A stretch of DNA of 64,000 bases. It comes from Spiroplasma phoeniceum P40. Its GTDB lineage: Bacteria > Bacillota_I > Bacilli_A > Mycoplasmatales > Mycoplasmataceae. The notes beneath the pieces were generated by a model, which was not told the DNA's origin, made no database searches, and saw nothing but the letters and a program-made list of their open reading frames with translations. Position 1 is the first letter of the stretch; each line of letters begins with the position of its first letter. The stretch covers positions 806,001 to 870,000 of the forward strand of contig NZ_CP031088.1 in assembly GCF_003339775.1 (NCBI RefSeq). Direction: 5' to 3'. Below, piece by piece: positions 6,708-20,664 of the stretch. A program made the translations under genes and the position numbers.

Positions 6708-7067
6708 ATGGCAAAAGTAGATAAAAAGTGATGAATAATGGCAAATTTAACAAAAATAAAGCAAAAATTAACAAAATTTGATGAATATTGTAAAGAAAAT
6801 AATATTAAACTTGCCACAAAAGAAACCTTATTAATCTTTTGTAATTTAGAAGAAGATGAATATAATACCTTAAAAGACACTAATTTATTAGCATTTAATG
6901 AACTTAAAATGAAAATACGAATATTAGAAAATAATATAAAATTACATCTCTTAAATGAAACTAAGGGGGGTGTATCTGTATATGCTCAGTATTATGGTCG
7001 TGAAAATGAAAGTGAAATAAATTATGCTCCCCCAGTAATTAACATAACAGATGGGAGAAACATATAA
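6708..7067 (+). CDS. Terminase small subunit (probable)
   Basis: This 119-aa protein starts at the ATG at 6708, chosen because AGAGGT lies 7 bases upstream and TGA codons are Trp; a later ATG at 6738 is possible. It is mostly helical and lies directly before the large terminase, with TAATG stop-start overlap. Position and size fit the DNA-recognition subunit that brings phage DNA to the packaging motor. I see no clear helix-turn-helix, so the call rests on context. Confidence 0.6.
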
Positions 7068-8584
7068 TGGCAATGTTATATGAATATAGTTATCTTAATA
7101 AGATAGTAATTAGTTTGTTAAATAATACTGAATATATTGCAGATGAGATTAATTTAGCAGGTAGTCGTAAAGCAGGTAAAACATATTCTATTGATGAATT
7201 AATAGCATTATTAAGTTGTGTAGTATTAGCACATAAAGATAAAAAAATAGCAATATATGGTTTTAGATTAAATAGTGCTGATACTGCTGAAATGCAACAA
7301 GATATTCAAGATGCATTAGATAAAATAGGTTTAATTCTTAATCCTACTAAAAAATGAAAAGGTGGTCATTATCAATATAATGCTAGGTTTAATAAACCTA
7401 CTTGATTATTTCCTAATGGTAGTTTTATTAAATTACAAGGAGCAAGAAAAAGTAATTCATCGCAAGTATTAGGTAAAGGAACAGCACGAGCAAATGGTGC
7501 TGATTTATGTATTATTTGATTAGAAGAAGCAAATGAATTTAGTAAAGCAGAAAAAGAAGCAATTATGCAAGCAGTTCGTGATTATAAAAAAATGATATTA
7601 ATTACAAGTACTAATCCTGATAGTATTTATCAAGATCATATTGATTATTTAAATAAATTAATGCCATTTAATCGTAAAGAATTAGAAAGTAATGGTGAGC
7701 AAATATCTAAATTAATAGTGCCAGTCTTAGATCCTAAAACAGGTCAAAAAGCATATGATAAAAAAGTAATTAATCATTATACTAATTATTTAATTAATAA
7801 AGATAATTTAAATTATGATGAATTAATGAAATTATATGAATTAAAAGCAGAATGACCTAAAAAATATGAGGTTTGAGGAATTGGAATGCCAGGTGCATTA
7901 GATGGTAGTATTTTTGCTAATTATTTATTTAGTAAATTATATGATTTTGAACCAGTTAATTTTAGAGCAGGCTTAGATTTAGGTTATGCTGAATCACCAT
8001 TAGGACATGCTACTCATGCAATTTTAATAGGAATAGATAAAGATTATAAAAAAATGGCACCATTAATGGAATATAAACATAGTAATGCTGAAATGGTACA
8101 AAAAGATATAATGAAAGTTTTACATGAAATAGTACATTTTTATATAATATGTGCTACACAGTGAAATGATTTATATAATGGTTTAGAAATAAATGTTGAT
8201 ACTGGTGGTGGTCATTTAGTAGAGGTTGATACATTAAATAATATTAGACGAAAGTTTTTCCCTGATGCTAATTGATTAAGATTTAAACCAGTTAATAAAG
8301 AAATATGATATAGAACTGATAGAATTGATGCTATAATCATCCTGCTAAATAAGAATTATTTACAAATTAGTCAAAGATTAACACCAGAATTATTTAAAGA
8401 TATGTTAAAAATGGAATGAAGAAAACCGCCAGCAAATAAATCTACTTATAAATTAGAAGATAATAAATTATTTGATGATGGTTTCGATGCTATGACTTAT
8501 GCTGTTATGGATATAATGGAATATTTTATAAAAACACTAGATAATCCATTTTTAATAAGTAAACAATTTGGAAAGCGAGGTTAA
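7067..8584 (+). CDS. Terminase large subunit
   Basis: This 505-aa packaging ATPase and nuclease is open through several TGA codons. The Walker A-type motif is GSRKAGKTYS (residues about 32-41), Walker B is LCIIWLEEAN, and the nuclease Asp residues are plausible in RAGLDLGYAE and in the FDDGFDAMTYA region near the end. It belongs to the PBSX/Terminase_3-like group. Translation is coupled to the small subunit. It would translocate DNA into the prohead and cut it. Looks intact. Confidence 0.9.
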
Positions 8585-8955: not shown

Positions 8956-9426
8956 ATGTCAAACTTTAAATATGAATATAAAGAAAATATGACACAAGAT
9001 GAAATTAATGCTTTATTAGAACAAAAAGAAAAGCAAATATTATCTAATGTCTTACCAAGTGTAGAAACTCGTATTAAAACTGAAACTGAAAAACAATATG
9101 AAGAAAAAATTAGTAATTATCAGTCAAAAATAAAAGAATATGAGTTATCACAAGTACCACAAGAAAATCGTAAATTAGTTGAAGAACTATTAAATAGTGG
9201 TAAAGATATGGAATATGTTAAAACTAACTTTAAAGATTTAATTGAGAAAAAACCACAATTAGATATGAAAAACCTAATGAATGGTGGAATTCAAATTAAA
9301 GATGAAAATATGTTTATTGAAGAATTATCACAAAAAATTAAAGAAAATTTACAAGATAATCATAATATTCCCATTAATGAAAGAATTAAAAACTTAGTTC
9401 AAAAAGAATACCAGAAAGGAAAATAA
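8956..9426 (+). CDS. Capsid scaffolding protein (probable)
   Basis: This 156-aa, strongly charged protein has a long coiled-coil region (residues about 15-70, ALLEQKEKQIL to SQVPQENRK) and no membrane segment. It stands directly before the capsid gene, 3 bases apart, with a GGAGG ribosome site. Size, charge, coil and position are those of scaffolding proteins that guide prohead assembly. No protease motif is visible. Confidence 0.75.
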   Translation: MSNFKYEYKENMTQDEINALLEQKEKQILSNVLPSVETRIKTETEKQYEEKISNYQSKIKEYELSQVPQENRKLVEELLNSGKDMEYVKTNFKDLIEKKPQLDMKNLMNGGIQIKDENMFIEELSQKIKENLQDNHNIPINERIKNLVQKEYQKGK

Positions 9427-9429
9427 AAT

Positions 9430-11280
9430 ATGGCATCAATTATAGGATTACATGAAGGGTTTGTTATTGGTAATGGAGTAGCAAATTTAACAAAAGAAGG
9501 ACATTTATTATTATCAGCACAAGAAATGCGAGTAAAAAATATTTTAACTAATCCTGATTATTATACATTTCACCGTTTAACAGCAACAGCACAATCAAGT
9601 CCTAATATGGAAAGTGCAGATTATGCAGTAGCAATTTATACAATTCCAGAACGATTATTTTATGGTGATTCAGAATGAAATCACGAAAAAGGAAATCCAA
9701 AACAAAATCAAAATGCTAAGCGTGGTCGTTTAGTAATTGATCATACTATTGGTTTAAAAACACAATGAAGACGATTTGATTTAGATCGTTTAAAAAATAC
9801 TGACCCATCATTACGCGGTGAATTAGTAGCAAAATGAACTGGTTCAATTACAGAAAATATGATGTTTAATTTAGAATTATACTTTTTAAAAGGTGTAATT
9901 GATAATTATATTGCTAGATCAAAATTTAAACCTGATTATGCTTTTATTTATGACACAAGTACAATTAAAACTCAACAAGATGCATTAGATTTAATGTATA
10001 AATTAGCACATCGTATGACTGATGAAACAAGAAAAATTAATGCATCTCAAATTGGGACAAATACTAGTGATTGAGAAATGATATGAGAACCACATTCATA
10101 TTTAGATTTAACACGAGCATATACTCAATTAATTGGTGAAAGTATTTCAGCAAATACAATGGTAACAGGTACTTTATTCCAAGATAAAGTAATGGGTTAT
10201 ATGATTTCTAAATCATTATGACTTGGGCAAGAAATTGAACCTTTATATGGTAAAACATCAGATGGGCAATTACAAGTTAATTTAGAGGGAATGAATAGAA
10301 CTCGTGGATTTGATTTATCTATTGATAAAAAAATTGAAGGACTTGTAATTCATAGAGAAAATGCAGCAATGATTACTATTTTTACTGAAAATATTAGTTA
10401 TGTTGATAATGATACACAAGAACCAGCATTTACAAGTCGTGTATTATTTTCATTACCTGCTTTAACAAGACCTGAATTAGGTTTCTTAATTGTTAAAGAA
10501 ATGTTTACAGAACAAGAACAAAATGATGCCATTGCTCGTTTATGAGATAATACTAATACTACTAGTGATAGTTGACAAAAATATAATGAATTTACTGGTG
10601 AATGAGAAAACGAATTAACTTATCAATTATTAGATTATGATCCAAATTATAAAGATTTTTATAATCCTATATTTAAAACTGCAATGCAAAATACTATTAA
10701 TAATATTAATAATTTAGATGTAGATCAAACAGCATTAAATATGGATGTTAAGAAAAAATATCATGAATTCTTTGGAATTATTCCATCAACTCTTGACACA
10801 GCAGAAATTAAAAAATTATTTGATAAAGTATTAGATAATAATTTAACTACATATCAAAAAAACAAAGTTATATCATTTATGCGTTCTGCCATAATATTAA
10901 GTGATGGTAAAAATGATTATCCAATTCAAATAAATTCAGCAGGTATTTATTTACCAGTTAATGAAATTGTAAGTGGAAATATTTATTTACATATTAATGC
11001 AGGTGTTATTGATAATCAAAATATTAATGATAAAAAAATATTAATTAATAGTACAACAAAACCTGCTTTATCAACAGTTATTACAACACCTAATTTAGGT
11101 CAAATTACAATGGTTGGTGATACACCAACTACTGCTGAATTAGAAACTGCTATTAAAGCAAAAAATACTAATTATCAAACTGGAGATGCAACATTCTCTA
11201 ATATTACATCTACTGGCACATTAGCAACTGGAAATCCAAATAAATATAGTGGAACAGTTTCTTTAATTTATTCAAAGTAA
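9430..11280 (+). CDS. Major capsid protein with C-terminal surface-like domain
   Basis: This 616-aa protein is open through TGA codons. The first about 370 residues read like an HK97-type capsid protein by position after the scaffold and by its mixed alpha/beta content. The last about 200 residues look different, with LSTVITTPNLGQ, then PTTAELETAIKAKN and YSGTVSLIYS. This pattern of short helix plus beta hairpin is the repeat seen in Spiroplasma surface proteins of the spiralin type. At its stop (11278-11280) the -1 frame is open for another 216 codons, which may be a frameshift extension (next entry). Confidence 0.75.
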
Positions 11281-11933
11281 GTAGTGCCGTAGATATTCAC
11301 GATAAAATTAAAAATGTTGATAGTTTAACAAATGATGAAATAATTAAAGGAATTATTGTACCTCAAAAAGTATCAAGTGAAGATTTAAGACCGCTTTTAA
11401 ATGATAAAGTTTTAAAAGCAGTTAAAGCGGTTGATGCAAGTTTAACAGCAGATGATTATGATTGATGACCGTTATATTATCAAGGTGAACCATCAAGTTA
11501 TGATATTACTACAACAGATATTTATGTTGATATTTATATTGCTGGTAAAAATAAAGCAACTGGTGTTTCACAAGTTCAGTATTATAAAGTACAAAAAGTA
11601 AATCAAATAAGTATTAAACAATTTAATAAAGATAATATTGGAACTTTAAAAACACCTTGATATAGTGATGTTCCTGATTTAACTAAAAAAGCAGATGTAA
11701 TTACTGAAATGAATACTGGTCTTATTAAAGCAATTCAAAAACTTAATGCTGGTTTAACAACTTCAGATTATATTGTTAATATTTTAGATTATGATGATTC
11801 AATATTTAATGATAGAGATGAGGGTAATTTTAGCAATAATGTTTCGGTACCATATATTTTAATTGGTACAAATTGATTAACTGGTGAAACAACAGGAATG
11901 GAAATTACAGTTCCTGCTGCTACTAAAAAATAA
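11277..11933 (+). CDS. Possible -1 frameshift extension of the capsid protein
   Basis: An open frame of 218 codons runs from 11277 to the TAA at 11931-11933 with no ATG, GTG or TTG start near its beginning. It lies in the -1 frame of the capsid gene and starts at the capsid stop (TCA AAG TAA). Two repeats can be seen: LLNDKVLKAVKAVDASLTAD and MNTGLIKAIQKLNAGLTTSD, each followed by a beta-rich part. They resemble the capsid's own C-terminal module. Options are programmed -1 slippage on AAAG giving a minor long capsid form, a mutation or sequencing error splitting one gene, or a separate gene with a cryptic start. Confidence 0.55.
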
Positions 11934-12858: not shown

Positions 12859-12896
12859 TTGACACTCTCCTTATGGTGATTATATAATGGGTGATG
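12859..12896 (+). promoter_or_regulatory. Phage late promoter, site 4 (portal)
   Basis: TTGACA at 12859, TATAAT at 12883 (18-base spacer; TATATA at 12881 would give 16), then GGGTGATG. It lies in the 59-base divergent gap between the KTSC-like gene and the portal gene. The spacing and the extra G depart from the other sites. Confidence 0.7.
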
Positions 12897-12914
12897 ACAA
12901 AAAGAGGTGTAAAA

Positions 12915-14321
12915 ATGAATAATGAAATAGATTTTAAAGAATTAAATAAACAACCCGAATATTTAAATTATTTGGAAAAAGGAAAATACCCAATATTATC
13001 AGAACAAAAATATTATATTGATATTCCTTGAATTATTGCTAATAGAAAAGCAGCTCCATTAACTATTGGACAAGGTCTAATGTTTAATTGTGATAATGAT
13101 GATACACAAGATTGAATAGAAGAATGATACGAAAAAAACTATGTTTATTCTAAATTATTTCAAAATGAATTAGCAAATAGTTTATATGGGCGTAGTGTAA
13201 TGTATTTATTAAAAACAGAAACTGATGATTTAACTATTGATGTTGCACCTATTGGTTCAAGTGTTCGTATTGCTAAATATTCAGAAATAGAACAATATGC
13301 AGAAATGTGAATATTACCTGCTCAATCTGATTATATGTGATATCAAAAAGTACAATTTTATCCAAGAAAAGCAAAAATAACTTATTATACTGCAAAAGAT
13401 TTAGAAATTGGTATTTGACAAACTTATGGTGAATTAGAAAGTAAATTAAGACCAGTTTCTATAATGGAATATGATACTGGAATAGATATATTACCTATTG
13501 TTGAATTTACAAATTTACCTAAATTAGTTCAAGGTACAAAAACAACAGCAGATGCTGTGCCCGATTGTTTACCTGTATTTAATTTAATTAAAGATGTACA
13601 AGATAATATTTATTATAAAAGAATTGAAAGAATTATTAATCGTACTCATTTTGTAGGACGAAAAAATACATCTCCACTTGGTGATAATGATAATGGTAAT
13701 GGTGATGAAGAATTAGTACAAGCAGATGCTTTAATTAGTAGTACAGTTCAACAATATGCTATGACTGGTACTACTGGTGTTGGTTTAATTCATGCTCAAC
13801 AAAATTATACTGAAATAACTATTGATAGTGATTATTCTATGAAAATGATATTTAATGGTGCAGGTTATGAATATGATAATTTTTCAGGGAATAATTATAC
13901 AAATAAAACAGAGTCATTAATGAATAATAAATTAGATATTCATACTACTTTACAAAAAAGATCTTTACGATTTCCTAAATTATATCGCTTATTTGATTAT
14001 ATATTTAAGCATTATAAAAAATGAGATAGTTTAGATGATAACAGTCAGAATAATGATAATTTTAGACCTTATACCTTAGAATTTATAGATATATCAATAG
14101 TTAATGAAATTACTCAATCTGAGGTAATTGATAGACAAATAAATAATGGAACTATTACTCATGTTAGAGCAATTCATAAACAAGAAAAAGTAACAAATAA
14201 AAAAGCAAGAATGATGTATGAAGAAATTAAAAAAGAACAAAAAGAACAATTAGATCAAGAAATGAGTTATATTGATGATAATCAAACAAGAGAAGAAGAT
14301 ATTAAAGGAGATATACAATAA
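12915..14321 (+). CDS. Portal protein
   Basis: This 468-aa protein forms the ring at the capsid vertex through which DNA passes. Evidence is size, mixed beta/alpha N-terminal wing with many Trp/Tyr, a long C-terminal helical stretch (KARMMYEEIKKEQKEQ) and location near terminase and capsid. It fits the SPP1 gp6-type portal family. AGAGGTG is the ribosome site. Its stop overlaps the next ATG (TAATG), so the two are coupled. Portal after capsid is a less usual order than portal before scaffold. Confidence 0.8.
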
Positions 14322-19212: not shown

Positions 19213-19227
19213 AAAAGACTTTTTTTG
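19204..19227 (+). terminator. Terminator after holin-like gene
   Basis: AAAGTCT and AGACTTT pair over a short A loop, followed by T7. The stem overlaps the TAA of the gene and the upstream part of promoter site 7. Confidence 0.7.
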
Positions 19228-19229
19228 TT

Positions 19230-19242
19230 TATAATGGTGATG
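19230..19242 (+). promoter_or_regulatory. Phage promoter, site 7 (-10 and GGTGATG)
   Basis: A perfect TATAAT is followed by GGTGATG, 15 bases before the adaptor gene. No good -35 is seen 16-18 bases upstream (TCTAAA at 16), so strength may come from the -10 and the conserved downstream element. Confidence 0.65.
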
Positions 19243-19257
19243 CGAAGAGGTGAAATT

Positions 19258-20664
19258 ATGGCAGATATAACAAAATTAGAAAGTTTTAAATTAATAACAT
19301 TAGAAGAGTTTAAAAATTGAGAGGGTTTTGATAAATTAGTAGCACAATATGGTAAAAAACTTTATGATGATACTATTTCAAATTATTTAATTGAGGGTAT
19401 TACAAGAGCAAGTTTACAATTAGATAGTATTTGTGGTTATCGTTTAGAAACTGAGTTTCCATTGCTTGATCCTAATAGTGAAATTGATAAAAAGCGGATT
19501 AATTATGTAAAAATTGCTTGTTGTTTGCAAACTCAATATTTAATAAGAACTGGGATTGAATATTCAAATGGTGGTGAAAATAGTAGTGATAGTGTTGCAA
19601 GTTATACATATCCTAGTAATATGAAGATAGAATTTTCTCCTGATATTATAAGTTTATTAGAAAAAGCAAAGTTTTATAAATCACAAACTATAACTAAAAT
19701 AAACCCTGATAATTATGGTTTTAAAAATGAATATAATACTGGATTTGTGCAACCTGATACTAATCATAAAGATCGACCAATTATGTTAAGTGAGGCAGAT
19801 GCTAAATATGTATGAAAAAATAGTATGTTTACATCTAATACTTTATCTATTATTCCATGATCTAGTACTGAAAAAAGTGGAATATGACAAATTGAAATAT
19901 CAAGGGAATTATTAGCAAATTATATTGATAATTATATAAAAAATATTTCCGTTAAACTTGATAATAAAAGTATTATATATAATTCTAATAATGAATTATC
20001 AGTGCCTTTTGATAATGATACGATTTATTATGAAAATAATGTATGAAAAGCAAAACAAGGTGGTGATATACCATCTGATGTTATTAAAGATAGTGATTTA
20101 AATAAAGATTATATTGATAAAGAAGATGGAAAATATATTGTTAAAAAAGCACAAAGTGGTAGTTCAATAACAGTTAATGCCCCGTTACATCAAAAAGATG
20201 ATAGTAGTTTAGAATTATTATTATCAGATGAATTTGATATTGAAAATAATAAATTATCTTTAGATAAAGGTTTAACAGATACTATTGACCAAATGTTAAA
20301 ATGAGTGCTTGAAATAAATAAAAAAATAAAATGAGAAGAAGTACCGATATCATACACACCTGATAGTTCAACTTATATTGATATTCCTGAATTTTCAGAA
20401 GAATATCGTTATCAAGTTAGAATGTCACCAACTAATCGGAGTACATCTGAAGGTAACTTACGACTTGATCCGCCTTATTTTACAGAAAAAAAAGCAAATA
20501 AAACTTTATCTAAACGCCAATCAATCGCTTTTATTGATGATATGGATAAAACCCATTATAGTATTTCACTATATAATGCTACTGGTCGAGTTTATTTAAC
20601 TGATGGTAATGCTGGTAATAATGTAAAAATAAATAGTGTTCGGGTTTTACGACAAGAGGTGTAA
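19258..20664 (+). CDS. Head-tail adaptor fused to C-terminal tail domain
   Basis: This 468-aa protein starts at 19258 with GAGGTG 7 bases upstream. Residues 1-160 form a helical domain (ITLEEFKNWEGF, INYVKIACCLQTQYLI) like gp6/gp15-type head-tail adaptors. The remaining beta-rich part (VPFDNDTIYYENNVWKAKQG, LLLSDEFDIEN, YRYQVRMSPTNRS, GRVYLTDGNAG) looks like a tail appendage. The middle block is nearly identical in DNA to the truncated copy at 1463-2278. Fusion of an adaptor with an appendage domain is my inference. Confidence 0.65.

Follow-up and report, generated by a model that had tools for sequence, protein, structure and literature searches.

A probable programmed -1 frameshift adding spiralin-like modules to a putative Spiroplasma phage capsid protein

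Coat proteins with an extension gained by ribosomal frameshifting are established for T3/T7 (gene 10), Lactobacillus phage A2 and the Listeria phages A118, A500 and PSA (PMC5009743). These extensions are often Ig-like and, depending on the relative, lie in frame or out of frame with the coat gene; a proposed origin is that domains land at random in either kind of frame and are then selected (PMC5009743). The locus described here resembles these systems in that a minor, C-terminally extended coat form would arise when ribosomes change frame close to the coat gene's end; the original prediction had regarded such a long form as new, but with T3, A2 and A118 as precedents it is not new in kind (PMC5009743). 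It differs in its modules, which resemble spiralin and lipoproteins rather than Ig-like domains, in its mollicute host, in that no stimulator was found, and in that the out-of-frame joint is itself conserved within a cassette carried on four capsid backbones. No published frameshift in a mollicute phage was found in the literature searched. The other point of reference is spiralin, the major lipoprotein on the surface of S. citri, which in vitro binds glycoproteins of the leafhopper insect vector (PMC3485318).

The window, that is, the whole stretch of DNA analyzed, comprises 64,000 nt of Spiroplasma phoeniceum P40 (NZ_CP031088.1, positions 806,001-870,000, forward strand), translated with TGA as tryptophan (code 4). 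The junction lies within a tailed-phage head module of terminase, a 156-aa protein, the putative capsid, portal and, downstream, a head-tail adaptor-like protein, with the following features:

7067..8584, + strand: terminase large subunit (Pfam Terminase_3, E 3.2e-5; PHROG terminase, E 4.9e-20)
8956..9426, + strand: 156-aa protein directly upstream of the capsid gene, probably coiled-coil (from its position; the equivalent MaM-2019a gene is noted as coiled-coil)
9430..11280, + strand: putative major capsid protein, short form, type A, 616 aa (gene order; about 28% identity to type B)
11068..11277, + strand: 0-frame C-terminal module of about 70 aa, the first part of the cassette (common to four capsid types; 61-67% identical to S. 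kunkelii lipoprotein repeats)
11264..11284, + strand: 21-nt invariant stretch TAATTTATTCAAAGTAAGTAG (constant in 22 distinct junctions)
11274..11277, + strand: proposed slip site A_AAG, AAG being the final capsid codon (AAG at 25/25 loci)
11278..11280, + strand: 0-frame stop TAA (from the sequence; present at all 25 loci)
11277..11933, + strand: extension in the -1 frame, 218 codons and a stop (19 full-length copies keep it open; dN/dS 0.47-0.76)
11307..11594, + strand: extension module 1, spiralin-like (hhalign 98% to in-frame capsid modules; pooled with those, 96% to spiralin)
11598..11930, + strand: extension module 2, a copy that has diverged from module 1 (hhalign 87% to that module and its relatives)
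12891..14321, + strand: portal protein (PHROG portal, E 5.4e-5)
19225-20664: head-tail adaptor-like protein

The 156-aa protein, for which family searches returned no match, is a candidate scaffold by position. The 19225-20664 product and that of 1454-2278 have a common segment, VPFDNDTIYYENNVWKAKQG...SSITVNAPLHQKDDxSLELLLSDEF, a sign that another module within the phage region may have been exchanged or duplicated.

Gene order and distant homology to an annotated relative identify the 9430..11280 product as a putative major capsid protein. This type A protein is about 28% identical to type B, and type B has a close relative in Spiroplasma phage MaM-2019a that carries a capsid annotation owing to an HHpred match to the P22 coat. 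When an HK97-type fold or family was sought, the capsid gave no family match in Pfam or PHROG and no PDB sequence match, and its AlphaFold model was discarded as too poor to use (pLDDT 37). Annotated phages yielded nothing for capsid types A and D or for the extension, and scans of IMG/VR and GTDB contigs yielded no match to the extension or the capsids.

The capsid frame ends in TCA AAG TAA, with the TAA at 11278, and the -1 frame runs for 218 residues from GTA (11277, the G of AAG) to a stop at 11931-11933, so that the two open reading frames abut as originally described; the remaining two frames across the same DNA contain 17 and 25 stops. The S. phoeniceum genome holds 12 copies of the extension, each starting at the exact last base of the final capsid codon, and more copies occur in two other Spiroplasma genomes (one of them S. 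kunkelii CR2-3x) and on eight S. citri plasmids. The junction could be read at 25 loci representing 22 distinct junction sequences, counts that exceed the number of independent events because loci of the same genome are not independent. All 25, without exception, have AAG|TAA with the extension behind it in the -1 frame, and the longest invariant run in a 300-nt alignment of the 22 distinct junctions is the 21-nt stretch spanning the junction. The predicted recurrence of the two-frame arrangement in relatives was thus found, and a cassette copy with both parts in one frame, which would have pointed to an error or mutation in the window, was not encountered among them; other species do fuse related but distinct modules in frame. 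A sequencing or assembly error, for which nothing speaks beyond the two-frame appearance itself, was discarded as having a practically negligible probability, since the same junction is present in independently sequenced assemblies of S. kunkelii CR2-3x and of S. citri BR12, LB 319, D4, D10 and BLH-MB.

The extension might instead be a separate decoration protein, made by termination-reinitiation or from a non-standard internal start such as the ATT that follows an AAAGGA-like motif at extension codons 26-27 (about 11346); RefSeq indeed calls only an internal fragment of about 115 aa. However, the first ATG, GTG or TTG of the extension frame in the window is codon 145, in agreement with the original observation that the frame has no start codon near its beginning, and none stands at a conserved early position. 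No Shine-Dalgarno-like motif was found near the junction. Conservation extends to the first residues of the extension (VSSAxDIHDKI) and to the exact point at which it abuts the capsid frame, neither of which translation from a start further downstream would require. We consider a separate protein unlikely.

Conservation of the reading frame bears on a further explanation, in which an indel long ago disrupted an extension that had been in frame, leaving only a silent, spreading reservoir copied between prophages by recombination. Strong homogenization within genomes and the decay of five copies (L062, L063, L067, L071 and L074) would suit such a reservoir. Against it, the whole extension is open in 19 copies, down to 76-78% amino-acid identity, whereas the frame stayed open in 2-7% of runs per lineage when random substitution was simulated at the observed distances. 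Pairwise dN/dS of the extension was 0.47-0.76, with bootstrap P values of 0.001-0.009 in six of eight pairs and non-significant values (0.055 and 0.14) in the other two; the open frame is under selection, though dN/dS is not strongly below 1. The fixed AAG, the separate A_AAA_AAG cases described below and the lack of any one-frame cassette copy also speak against a silent reservoir, which we regard as very improbable.

The junction offers a plausible site for slippage. A_AAG is the sole conserved position in the overlap of the two frames, the shortest of which is five codons (in L066), that allows good tRNA re-pairing one base back. The junction lysine is AAG in every copy, while elsewhere in the cassette AAG accounts for 6 of 205 lysine codons (3%), and two capsids of genome G007 that carry the same 0-frame module without the extension end in TCA AAA TAA. 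The only lysine tRNA found in the genome was tRNA-Lys(UUU), with two genes and no CUU gene, a single lysine tRNA as in E. coli; the tRNA-family matches left without an anticodon scan were 82-90 nt long, the size of Leu/Ser-type genes.

The site resembles the Z_ZZN and X_XXZ_ZZN -1 sites of bacterial IS elements and dnaX (PMC4066793), with A_AAG here and A_AAA_AAG in two relatives, and differs from them in having a stop directly after AAG and no detected hairpin or pseudoknot, pseudoknots lying outside the folding model. With the same model, no fold near or downstream of the site was better than those of shuffled sequences, and no stimulatory hairpin was found at the two other -1 sites (L103 and L084). 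No tetramer shifts more readily than A_AAG in E. coli when a stimulator is present, yet A_AAG shifts very little without one (PMC4066793), so the shift rate here could be low. With hundreds of subunits per capsid, we infer that slippage at about 1% would be enough to place several of the long form in each particle. As regards the usual marks of a programmed -1 site, the conserved abutment of the 0 and -1 frames and a slippery motif in the right frame are both present, and a stimulator or upstream Shine-Dalgarno sequence was not found; such elements are common at programmed -1 sites but not obligatory. Fusion by transcriptional slippage or ribosome hopping would agree with the missing stimulator structure, but homopolymer runs at the junction reach at most three bases and the conserved AAG fits tRNA re-pairing, making either process highly improbable.

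The nature of the modules was only partly as first described. The two extension modules are related to each other (hhalign probability 87%), as had been proposed, whereas neither was detectably related to the module at the capsid's own C-terminus (probability below 1%). Module 1 matched the in-frame capsid modules at 98%, and the joint profile matched Spiroplasma lipoproteins at 99% and the spiralin domain at 96%, all hhalign figures being single-pair statistics. The extension gave no match up to E 1 in a Pfam search that included spiralin (PF05215), and an in-frame relative of its modules scored 21.8 bits against the PF05215 cut-off of 25, so the modules are best called spiralin-like rather than proven members. 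The proposed resemblance to Spiroplasma surface proteins nevertheless held, for the extension with spiralin-type domains and lipoproteins and for the 0-frame module with the repeats of an S. kunkelii lipoprotein. The extension modules share the helix-plus-strands module type of spiralin and the surface lipoproteins, and differ in lacking a lipoprotein signal, in their attachment to a phage structural protein and in the remoteness of the similarity to spiralin. As to an Ig-like fold, there was no Pfam match, and the AlphaFold model, which predicted a long helix and strands, was discarded for its poor confidence (pLDDT 46); the Foldseek result was meaningless.

A 1260-aa lipoprotein encoded on S. 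kunkelii plasmid pSKU205 contains about 16 tandem repeats to which the 0-frame module is 61-67% identical. The gene (L166; NZ_CP012424.1, 2060-5818, minus strand), in which the capsid-ending module recurs in approximately 16 tandem copies of 76 aa, may have donated the phage module or received it.

The unit formed by the 0-frame module, the A_AAG site, the stop and the -1 extension is not confined to one capsid. The last approximately 70 residues and the extension follow four strongly different capsids, namely A (616 aa), B (427), C (442) and D (383), of which A, B and C are about 25-29% identical to one another and D gave no convincing alignment. Mean extension identity was 95% within the same genome across different capsid types, and 81% between different genomes with the same capsid type; the window extension (type A) is 98% identical to a type C copy of the same genome and 79% identical to the S. 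citri type A extension, even though those two capsids are 96% identical. Extension identity therefore tracks the host genome and not the capsid, indicating that the whole unit, from the 0-frame module through slip site and stop to the extension, is transferred and homogenized as one, which argues against a one-off frameshift mutation. Tentatively, and somewhat short of an even chance in our judgment, this unit may be a mobile decoration cassette with its own recoding signal that moves whole between dissimilar capsid genes and is homogenized per host species, providing a controlled minority of long subunits that bear host surface-lipoprotein (spiralin-like) modules for adhesion or surface mimicry in the host or insect vector.

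Several other features of the loci were observed. In S. kunkelii, a type D capsid (L108; G001:C1, 446526-447674, minus strand) lies near an extension without a capsid (L064; 450245-450892, plus strand), each broken at the stop or junction and on opposite strands, as if an inversion had cut exactly there. In the type B and C prophages L054, L056, L057, L059 and L062 of genome G000, a tRNA-Ser(GCT) gene precedes the capsid by about 0.7-0.8 kb; the type A prophage of the window has no such gene. Large S. citri plasmids (56-135 kb), including NZ_CP046369.1 (L051), contain a phage head module, with products annotated only as hypothetical, and may be phage-plasmids.

Comparable arrangements occur in other Spiroplasma genomes, where type B and D capsids mostly carry one in-frame module. 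The MaM-2019a records from S. poulsonii (OL689226, OL689227 and OL689230) similarly have a spiralin-like module at the C-terminus of a type B capsid, and one record notes a weak HHpred match to Spiralin; they differ in that this single module is in frame, on every subunit, and no extension lies behind the stop. Two other capsids have separate -1 junctions: a type B capsid of G011 (L103), with an in-frame module, reads GCA AAA AAG AAG TAA before a 99-aa -1 module, and in a type C capsid of G012 (L084) a 91-aa -1 module accompanies GCA AAA AAG CAA TCG GAG ATT TAA. The classic slip heptamer of bacteria, A_AAA_AAG, is present in each; it was counted 3 times among the 13,148 codons of the window, a rarity to be read as a guide and not a formal test since the two cases were seen only after capsid ends with an open shifted frame had been inspected. 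Elsewhere, a type B capsid of G009 (L081; G009:C1, about 557734-559447) is followed, after CCC codons, by an extension of two modules in the +1 frame; it was not counted as programmed +1 recoding, being one locus where a simple indel is possible.

These comparisons favor a programmed -1 frameshift yielding a minor long capsid form, to which we assign a probability of roughly 0.8. The original proposal to this effect gains strong comparative support, which comes independently from the spread over species, the four capsid backbones and the two separate A_AAA_AAG junctions, and further from the strict AAG. The same out-of-frame arrangement behind four coat proteins suggests that a few long, decorated subunits are probably made by deliberate slippage. 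According to the mechanism we infer, most ribosomes would stop at the TAA at 11278 and release a short form of 616 aa whose C-terminus already consists of one lipoprotein-repeat-like module. On a minority of ribosomes, tRNA-Lys(UUU) would re-pair from AAG to AAA at the A_AAG just ahead of the stop, a slip of one base backward. The slipped ribosomes would read 218 further codons to give an 834-aa form with two additional spiralin-like modules, which may enter the particle as a minor capsid subunit and display them on the head. By analogy with spiralin and its binding of leafhopper glycoproteins in vitro, it is plausible that the long form serves to adhere to the host cell or to glycoproteins of insect origin.

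If correct, this would be a recoding event without earlier report for mollicute phages in the literature searched, in an extension missed by current annotation. The slip site would travel inside an exchangeable domain cassette instead of arising anew with each fusion, and phage heads would be linked to the spiralin-type surface modules of their hosts, which bind insect-vector glycoproteins in vitro. With in-frame, -1 (A_AAG and A_AAA_AAG) and possibly +1 attachments within a single genus, Spiroplasma phages would offer a natural experiment on how phages take up capsid decorations.
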